Shown: piece after piece, positions 1,029 to 3,128 of the stretch
Layout of the letters: every line of letters begins with the position of its first letter
Position numbering within the stretch: the first letter of the stretch is position 1
DNA from: Eubacteriaceae bacterium
GTDB lineage: Bacteria > Bacillota > Clostridia > Eubacteriales > Anaerofustaceae
Assembly (NCBI GenBank): GCA_017551505.1
Contig: JAFZLL010000024.1
Coordinates: 1 to 44,456 of the forward strand
Length of the DNA: 44,456 nucleotides
Direction: 5' to 3'
Position numbers and translations under genes: made by a program
The notes under the pieces: generated by a model
What the model saw: the letters and a program-made list of their open reading frames with translations, nothing else
Told to the model about the DNA's origin: nothing
The model's database searches: none

Positions 1029-1053
1029 ATAAAAAAAGCCGGCAAATGCCGGC
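1029..1053 (-). terminator. Terminator of the sigma-like/HEPN-CBS operon
   Basis: On the minus strand two GCCGGC arms (1048-1053 and 1038-1043) separated by ATTT are followed by seven T. It lies 60 bases after the end of the CBS gene. The 913-1115 stretch otherwise holds no gene. Confidence 0.8.
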
Positions 1054-1115
1054 ATGATCGCAGCGTACGGTATCCTCATCGGGATAGGATCGATGATCCC
1101 TTTATGGGACGCGGA

Positions 1116-1829
1116 TCACAGCATCTCTCTGAATGTATTCTTTGCCGAGAGCATATCCCAGGGGGTGAGCATCCCCTTTACCTTTCCCCCGGACCGCCCG
1201 GACTCAGTCAAAAAAACGATCACGAGCCGCTTTTTTCCTTTTTTATCTGAAAACATCTTTTCCACCGCTACCGGTGAGGCCTGGGGCGAGGCGAAGTCGA
1301 AGTATTCCCCGCTGTGTGCGTTTATCGAAAGGAACTCCTCGAAATCCCCAACTTTTGTCGCCTCTGAAAGCAGTGCTCCTCCGTATTTAAGTGCATAGGA
1401 AAGGAGGGTCGATATACTGAACACGCCTGTAAGCTTCCCTTCATCGATGATCGGCGCGTGGGAAAAACCCTTCTCGGACATCGTTGACACGGCCTGCTTG
1501 ACAGCGGTATCTCTGGACACCGTGAAGATATTCTTTATGGCCAGATCATTGGCAGTCAAAGGGTATTCGATCGTTTTTACGATAGCTCTCAGGTCTTCGA
1601 TCACTTCGTCCGATGGCTGGAACACATACTGCCCGTTTTCTACCGGATAATGCGTCAGCACGTTCCTCATCTCCCTGCAGATATCGAGCCTGTCCTTAAA
1701 GACCGCGCCTTCTCTGGAATTCAGGAAACGAAGCACGCAGTTTTCATATTTGTCCCCGGCTCTTCCGTATTTTTCGAAGAGCACTCTTTCAAGTTCCTTA
1801 TAAAGGTTAAGGAATTCATCGGCATTCAT
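1116..1829 (-). CDS. HEPN-like plus CBS-pair protein
   Basis: 237 residues. Residues 1-90 are all-helical and carry RNVLTH (Arg55, His60), an R-x4-H motif of the kind used by HEPN ribonucleases and HEPN structural relatives. Residues 97-155 form a clear CBS domain (IKNIFTVSRDTAVKQAVSTM then FSHAPIIDEGKLTGVFS) and 160-237 a second, more diverged one (KKRLVIVFL, GMLTPWDML). CBS pairs usually sense adenine nucleotides. The start is ATG 1827-1829: GAGGTG lies 5 bases upstream, while a GTG three codons earlier overlaps that ribosome site. It is the second gene of an operon, 37 bases after the sigma-like gene. That it is a nucleotide-controlled RNase or RNA-binding protein is inference; the HEPN call rests on one motif and predicted helices. 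Confidence 0.75.
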   Translation of the reverse strand: MNADEFLNLYKELERVLFEKYGRAGDKYENCVLRFLNSREGAVFKDRLDICREMRNVLTHYPVENGQYVFQPSDEVIEDLRAIVKTIEYPLTANDLAIKNIFTVSRDTAVKQAVSTMSEKGFSHAPIIDEGKLTGVFSISTLLSYALKYGGALLSEATKVGDFEEFLSINAHSGEYFDFASPQASPVAVEKMFSDKKGKKRLVIVFLTESGRSGGKVKGMLTPWDMLSAKNTFREML

Positions 1830-1866
1830 GAAAGTCACCTCAATGGCGATTATACCACATCTTGAC

Positions 1867-2328
1867 CTATATCTTTCGCTGCGGCAGATACTTCATTATT
1901 ACCTTTAAAGCCTCTGCATGCTTTCGGTAGATATTGCGCGATGAGTAGCCAACCCTGTCGGCGATCTCATCCCAGACCATCCCGTCAAGGTAACGCAGCA
2001 TAAGGATCTTGCGGTAGAACGGATCCTCGACCTTCATGATCGCGGACGAAATCTCGTCGTATACCTCACTGAGTTCTATCAGCTGCCCTATCATCCTGTC
2101 TTTAAGAGCAATCAGAGCGGCATCACCGGTCATTGCCTCCTTATGCATAAGAGAGCTGTCCGTGCCGGAAAGGCGCGCGACTGCTCTTTCAAGTCTGTTT
2201 ATACTGTCGTTCAAAAGCCCGATATCGATCCCCATATTGACCGCACGCGAAAGATATTCCTTCGCATTTTGGACATTAGTGCTGTCCCACCTCGTATTAA
2301 CGGTAACGGACATGTTTTTCACCGTCAA
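1867..2328 (-). CDS. Phage-type sigma-like transcription factor (DUF1492/ArpU-like)
   Basis: 153 residues from TTG 2326-2328. The C-terminal half, near residues 105-150, has a sigma region-4-like helix-turn-helix: RKILMLRYLDGMVWDEIADR, then VGYSSRNIYRKHAEALKVI. The N-terminal half is helical (NAKEYLSRAVNMGIDIGLLN). This layout matches small RNA-polymerase-associated activators common in Firmicute prophages. The TTG start is supported by GGAGGT 9 bases upstream; an in-frame ATG at 2313 with only GGTG before it is the alternative (148 residues). It is first in an operon with the HEPN/CBS gene. No phage genes flank it, so it is an orphan or domesticated copy. Family placement is from motif recognition only. 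Confidence 0.7.
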   Translation of the reverse strand: MTVKNMSVTVNTRWDSTNVQNAKEYLSRAVNMGIDIGLLNDSINRLERAVARLSGTDSSLMHKEAMTGDAALIALKDRMIGQLIELSEVYDEISSAIMKVEDPFYRKILMLRYLDGMVWDEIADRVGYSSRNIYRKHAEALKVIMKYLPQRKI

Positions 2329-2350
2329 TCCACACCGACCTCCGATTATT

Positions 2351-2364
2351 CGAACTTATGTTCT
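2351..2364. promoter_or_regulatory. LexA-like (SOS) box
   Basis: CGAACTTATGTTCT contains the dyad GAAC-N4-GTTC typical of Gram-positive LexA (DinR) boxes. It sits just downstream of the -10 element of the minus-strand promoter, over the expected transcription start, where a repressor would block transcription. The outer bases deviate from the Bacillus consensus as I remember it, so this is a candidate. Confidence 0.5.
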
Positions 2365-2369
2365 ATATA

Positions 2370-2398
2370 ACTATATCACCGAATGCTCTGCCGGTCAA
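2370..2398 (-). promoter_or_regulatory. Sigma-A promoter of the sigma-like/HEPN-CBS operon
   Basis: On the minus strand TTGACC (2393-2398), a 17-base spacer and TATAGT (2370-2375): each box is one base off consensus. The start point would fall near 2363, inside the LexA-like box, about 35 bases before the TTG start. Confidence 0.75.
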
Positions 2399-2579: not shown

Positions 2580-3128
2580 TTACAGATCGATCCACATGGA
2601 AGACCGGAGATATCCTTTAGCCTCCGCCGATGGCTGGCCTTCCTTCATGATTATCGTATCGGCGTATTCAAGAAAAGTCTCTTCAAGGCCGGATCTGTCG
2701 TCAGCGTCTCCGATAAACGTGAACATATAAAAGCCATCCCAGCCCTTGCGCATCGTTGCCAAGAAGAAGTGTTCTTTCCCATCCACTTCGGCAGTATATG
2801 CGATATAGTCGTAGTCTCCCCTGGTTTTAAGGTCGCTTTGGACCATCCCATTGCTTCTCAGTACCAGTGAAACATACTCGTCGATGTCTGATGCCTCGCT
2901 CAAGCCGACCACGGAAAGCTCCTCGAAAGTCTCCTTATATACTACCAGCATCTGGTTTCTCCCGTCAAAGCAGCTCTCAGCCCCTTCCACAGTCTGGGCA
3001 TCGAAATTCTCCGGCATCGTTATGGAATAGCCCGGGGTCTCATATACTGCGGTCTTCCGTGATTCCGCACATCCTGCCGCGCACGAAGCTATAATTATCA
3101 ATATCAATAATATGGCTGTTTTTTTCAT
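2580..3128 (-). CDS. Small exported lipoprotein
   Basis: 182 residues. The first 20 are a lipoprotein signal: Lys2-Lys3, a hydrophobic core of Ile and Leu, then CAAGC with Cys20 as the probable lipidated residue. The mature part (YSITMPENFDAQ; YDYIAYTAEVDGKEHFFLAT; DGFYMFTFIGDADD) resembles the single-domain PsbP/DUF1795-like fold of lipoproteins that carry a short transport-stress or fitness function, but I do not recognise a specific family. The start has GAGGAA 7 bases upstream. It is a single-gene unit with its own promoter and terminator. Confidence 0.8.
   Translation of the reverse strand: MKKTAILLILIIIASCAAGCAESRKTAVYETPGYSITMPENFDAQTVEGAESCFDGRNQMLVVYKETFEELSVVGLSEASDIDEYVSLVLRSNGMVQSDLKTRGDYDYIAYTAEVDGKEHFFLATMRKGWDGFYMFTFIGDADDRSGLEETFLEYADTIIMKEGQPSAEAKGYLRSSMWIDL

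Follow-up and report, generated by a model that had tools for sequence, protein, structure and literature searches.

The locus described here raises the question of whether DNA damage, in an uncultured clostridium of the Eubacteriaceae, switches on a phage-type transcription regulator together with a protein that joins a HEPN-like domain to a pair of CBS domains (hereafter HEPN-CBS). A sequence-only reading of the window, that is, of the whole stretch of 44,456 nucleotides analysed, had proposed a possible SOS-controlled operon of these two genes, and the parts it listed, namely the promoter, the dyad, the sigma-like gene, the gene with the RNxxxH motif and the CBS pair, and the terminator, are all found on the minus strand (Table 1). 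The dyad lies directly 3' of the -10 element of P1. The regulator has a TTG start codon, and a relative has GTG at the same codon; as for HEPN-CBS, its open reading frame lies within 1838-1116 and the ATG at 1829 is the likely start, hence the numbering of R55 and H60 stays as first given. The gap between the regulator stop codon and this ATG is 37 nt, with no terminator between the genes and a single one common to both. Upstream, at 2580-3128 of the window, is a lipoprotein gene that has a separate terminator (2565-2546).

Table 1. Features of the regulator/HEPN-CBS locus (window positions) and of the lexA locus of the same genome
Feature	Position	Strand	Basis
Promoter P1, TTGACC-17-TATAGT, with TG before the -10 (extended)	2370..2398	-	sequence
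Predicted LexA box AGAACATAAGTTCGA, GAAC-N4-GTTC dyad at 2363-2352, over the expected start point	2350..2364	-	sequence
DUF1492/sigma-70 region-4-like phage-type regulator, 153 aa, TTG start	1867..2328	-	profiles + AF2
P2, putative promoter of HEPN-CBS inside the unit, with extended -10 TGG-TATAAT	1849..1857	-	sequence
HEPN-like (1-90) and CBS-pair (91-237) protein, 237 aa, ATG 1829, GAGGTG ribosome-binding site	1116..1829	-	
Intrinsic terminator, GCCGGCATTTGCCGGC-TTTTTTT	1038..1053	-	sequence
lexA and divergent LysM YneA-like gene, with intervening box	L002:1047-1500 (own genome)		

Regarding the dyad, one GAAC-N4-GTTC is observed in the window against 0.69 expected by chance, and about half of the shuffled windows contain one; since a single dyad in 44 kb is at the level of chance, independent support was needed. 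It came from the rest of the genome, whose 1.56 Mb hold only 12 perfect GAACN4GTTC sites, two of them located in promoters: that of the regulator operon and that of the gene for a Y-family DNA polymerase, where the box reads TATAATTAGAACATGAGTTCGA. A box of the form GAAC-N4-GTTY is common to recA, lexA and the Y-family polymerase of this genome. In the recA promoter, AGAACGTATGTTTGA follows TATAAT at the position occupied by the box at P1 (arrangement TATAAT-7-GAACGTATGTTT); the lexA gene is present, and CGAACATTTGTTT lies between it and the divergent LysM (YneA-like) gene. At recA, the polymerase gene and the regulator operon the box stands just 3' of the -10, and a search of the genome for this combination returned these three sites and one intragenic match, on contig C50, which was rejected as a LexA site and read as chance. 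The raw count of the combination did not exceed that of a reversed-pattern control; therefore, the evidence for a link with LexA lies in the position of the sites and not in their number. The form of the boxes at recA, lexA and P1 is that of the Clostridial/Bacillus LexA regulon (GAACN4GTTC/GTTT): in the available text of PMC4234289, the recA and lexA boxes of C. difficile are GAAC....GTTT and that of B. subtilis is GAACN4GTTC. The regulator operon would be an accessory target of LexA, absent from the C. difficile regulon table entries in that same text.

A congener, G006 (60% identity), keeps the promoter, the box and the gene order, so that the expectation of finding the dyad in an orthologous promoter was borne out. 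The orthologous promoter (locus L016) is TTGACT-17-TATATT, and its alignment with P1 shows identity in TTGAC, in the extended -10 letters GTGATATA and in the two arms of the box; in the box itself, 8/8 arm positions agree and 1/4 of the spacer. When promoter-linked boxes were searched in G006, recA, the Y-family polymerase and the regulator operon appeared again, the remaining matches being repeats or sites without a fitting downstream gene. A reading of the dyad as a palindrome arisen by chance or as a site for some other repressor, unrelated to SOS, is highly improbable: the shuffled windows and the raw genome counts, which are not enriched, agree with such an origin, but the position and flanks of the box match those at recA and at the Y-family polymerase, and in the congener the box has been kept although its spacer has diverged. 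The genome thus has a LexA gene and a host box of the form GAAC-N4-GTTY, and the same box lies over the promoter and start of this operon and is kept in the ortholog; from these sequence data, LexA very probably controls P1, as had been proposed.

The first gene of the operon had been described as a phage-type sigma-like gene, a description that the profile searches uphold. The protein matches Pfam Sigma70_r4_2 (7e-7) and DUF1492 (2e-5, over the cut-off), as well as phrog_36 (2e-19 over residues 17-148). Its AF2 model has a region-4 helix-turn-helix (HTH) on a long two-helix arm; the region-4-like part spans residues about 102-145 only, sigma region 2 is absent, and Foldseek gave no significant full-length match, with only region-4 fragments fitting. 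A complete sigma-70 factor was rejected because region 2 is absent. Matches to the regulator occur class-wide in 37/391 genomes, with 99% identity in its own genome and 25-37% in the others; many of the loci inspected adjoin phage helicase, HNH or terminase genes (read from translations), and annotated phages carry the homologue as a transcriptional regulator or RinA-family activator. The homology with the phage DUF1492/phrog_36/ArpU-RinA-like late regulators is full-length, with a similar AKEYLSxA N-terminus and region-4-like HTH; unlike these, the regulator described here lies outside a prophage, has a LexA-box promoter, and carries a genus-specific N-terminal extension (MTVKNxSVTxNTxWDS, common to the genus and missing in most phage copies). 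Its surroundings contain maf, lipoprotein, amidohydrolase and glycine/folate metabolism genes (read from translations); over the first 9 kb of the window none of the genes was recognised as phage-derived, and among these near neighbours the regulator gene is not in a phage late-gene context. Given a region-4 HTH without region 2 and the phage homology, the regulator is, on profiles and model, of the domesticated phage late-regulator type and not a complete sigma factor. UviA of Clostridium perfringens, which is induced by UV, offers a parallel: it too is a clostridial factor of sigma type, small in size and connected with DNA damage. It drives a bacteriocin and belongs to the TcdR-type sigma group (PMC10467148), whereas the present regulator is without region 2.

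As for the second gene, the R-x4-H motif noticed in its N-terminal domain stood up to comparison: an alignment of 22 homologues shows no variation at R55, N56 or H60, and RNxxxH is present in nearly all homologues phylum-wide, mostly as RNAIVH. In the AF2 model of HEPN-CBS (mean pLDDT 89.7) the N-terminal domain is all-helical, with helices at 2-21, 28-36, 45-60 and 74-88, and the motif (55-60) falls at the end of a core helix. None of the Pfam HEPN models matched the protein over its cut-off; the weak, sub-threshold Pfam matches of the N-terminal domain included HepT-like, Ribonuc_2-5A, HEPN_Swt1, HEPN_Cthe2314, DUF4145 and HEPN_RiboL-PSP. An hhalign comparison with HepT placed RNxLxH on RNILVH, with a weak score of 14.7, a value to be compared with 50 column shuffles of which none exceeded 7.8, and a profile search of the PDB with the N-terminal domain alone gave nothing significant. 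The Foldseek and VIA lists for the HEPN-CBS model were filled by the CBS domains, with no HEPN structure among the entries, and have no bearing on the fold of this domain. The invariant motif, the weak profiles biased towards HEPN, the register with HepT and the helical model together make a HEPN domain probable, not proved. A protein of family DUF6548 with the motif RNNLVH, encoded in the same genome (contig C59, L152:1399-2070), is a distant relative of the N-terminal domain, and it is possible that DUF6548 is a HEPN family as well.

The presence of two CBS domains was also substantiated: the first matches Pfam CBS (2.9e-14), both are recognised by fold, and in a structure search with the AF2 model the pair folds like AcuB and DarB (Z 13-15). 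The nucleotide motif GxxTxxD is kept, with T222 and D225 conserved in the 22-homologue alignment. The pair also resembles SriC/SriD, archaeal ribosome-bound CBS proteins (PDB 9zni), a likeness worth considering beside the translation genes that adjoin HEPN-CBS in other genomes.

Those other genomes bear on how far HEPN-CBS depends on the regulator. In the scan of genome contigs, a query with a single protein gave no match and an alignment-based query gave matches, whose neighbouring genes were named from reading translations. Ruminococcus-type genomes (L025-L036) have the run trmL, ABC-F, HEPN-CBS, mnmA; in Acutalibacter/Scatolibacter-type genomes HEPN-CBS comes after an RNase M5-like gene, an order read at L031, L038 and L046; in Anaerofustis it precedes a TRIC-type channel gene, and in other genomes it follows a znuC/znuB-like pair. 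The run in the Ruminococcus-type genomes suggests a connection with translation or tRNA, and the trmL, mnmA, ABC-F and RNase M5 neighbours hint that the protein has a core function in translation or in the maturation of RNA. In all the loci seen outside the genus, the regulator and the LexA-box promoter are absent; judged by these sequences, HEPN-CBS elsewhere is usually a core-type (housekeeping-type) gene without a LexA box. The adjacency of the two genes was confirmed in both genus members examined, the only place where the pair was seen, and did not extend to the homologous loci outside the genus. A candidate box, GAACTATTGTTC, upstream of HEPN-CBS at L039 and L042, with a similar one at L041, was rejected because it lies inside the upstream transporter gene. 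No HEPN-CBS was found in viral contigs, and a match labelled 'Listeria phage' was set aside as to phage origin: it is an unannotated, unverified contig of 2.2 kb with lspA-like and pseudouridine-synthase-like genes, and is therefore probably bacterial DNA.

Within the genus, HEPN-CBS has an element of its own. In both members the regulator gene ends with the sequence GATGTGnTATAAT in its last part (L016 about 887-900 in G006); the match of the P2 TATAAT between the species was read directly from the sequences, as MAFFT did not put the elements in register. Sequence and conservation make P2 a likely second promoter, which weakens the SOS dependence of HEPN-CBS: with its own conserved extended -10, this gene is probably boosted by SOS and not solely controlled by it. 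Thus, the label of an SOS-controlled operon fits the regulator in full but HEPN-CBS just in part, since the latter has this -10 and elsewhere usually lacks the LexA box. In G006, moreover, about 600 bp separate the two genes, including a minisatellite, and this makes their co-transcription uncertain there. The minisatellite (L016:930-1146) is made of 12/24-bp units (CATGCCCAAAGT); a lipoprotein gene in G006 that looks similar to the one at 2580-3128 of the window sits on the opposite strand.

These data could be read as two neighbouring units, the box serving the regulator alone, as a prophage relic under LexA, and HEPN-CBS being a core gene driven by P2, with read-through incidental. The solitary HEPN-CBS genes outside the genus, the extended -10 conserved directly upstream of it in both members and the repeat-bearing gap of G006 all speak for this arrangement, which is possible, if on the unlikely side: gene order and direction were kept in the two species though both proteins differ at 40-50% of their residues (the regulators are 50% identical), and in the window the short gap without a terminator and the common terminator also weigh against it.

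The reading preferred here, and moderately likely from sequence and analogy, is a two-gene unit repressed by LexA, made of the regulator and a basally expressed, damage-boosted HEPN-CBS that would be a gated RNase. In the undamaged cell, LexA, whose binding we infer from the box, would occupy the +1 of P1 and block transcription, and P2 would still provide basal transcription of HEPN-CBS. Upon DNA damage, the RecA-driven cleavage of LexA would open P1, giving the regulator and, by read-through to the common terminator, extra HEPN-CBS. The latter would act as a dimeric HEPN ribonuclease, its predicted activity set by an adenine nucleotide as the presumed ligand of the CBS pair, and would trim RNA or slow translation during DNA repair, while the regulator would act at promoters that are its putative targets.

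The closest known system is DS-11 (NF053863), a one-protein anti-phage system of CBS and HEPN domains validated in 2026, in which the HEPN residues as well as a tyrosine of the CBS part are required for defence (PMC13092281). HEPN-CBS shares with it the CBS pair, the HEPN domain and the proposed gating of an RNase by adenine derivatives; it differs in its N-terminal HEPN, in being a core-type gene in Bacillota, and in its link here to SOS. Membership of DS-11 was rejected: the NCBIfam model matches the CBS part only, scoring 21.2 bits where the cut-off is 260, and because it is the N-terminal third of the model that aligns with this part, the two domains seem to stand in the opposite order. 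A module for defence or abortive infection is conceivable, in which phage attack or replication stress would induce the pair, the regulator would mimic or interfere at phage late promoters, and HEPN-CBS would cleave RNA in the way suggested for DS-11. Prophages are usually triggered by SOS, the regulator has its homologues among phage late regulators, and DS-11 is a precedent for a defence protein that needs both domains; but PADLOC matches in the analysis were noise only, the likeness to the DS-11 model is confined as just described, and the neighbourhood is metabolic in the window and in relatives consists of tRNA-modification, RNase M5 and transport genes instead of defence islands, which makes such a module improbable.

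As for novelty, this is reduced, because HEPN-CBS fusions were already known and the pairing with the regulator is confined to the genus. Fusions of the same two domains were predicted in 2013 to be nucleotide-responsive RNA degraders (Anantharaman et al. 2013, PMC3710099); the available text of that work gives examples from Pelobacter and cyanobacteria, some with an HD domain, and in it neither a regulator partner nor SOS control is mentioned. Among the papers searched, none joined HEPN, a CBS domain and LexA; HEPN-CBS proteins are widespread in Bacillota, and no description of their function there was found. Apart from DS-11, we know of no trigger or role for a HEPN-CBS protein.

In conclusion, returning to the LexA-repressed unit, a stronger version of it can be put forward tentatively, as a rather doubtful proposal: a two-part SOS effector, in which damage would deploy the domesticated phage activator and the nucleotide-gated HEPN RNase together. 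If true, the damage signal would reprogramme transcription and trim RNA or translation in one step, and the RNase would be subject, through the CBS pair, to a check by energy state or alarmone. The conserved LexA box ahead of HEPN-CBS offers a concrete and testable link between DNA damage and control at the RNA level, and in this genus a phage late-gene regulator appears to have come under SOS control by its host.
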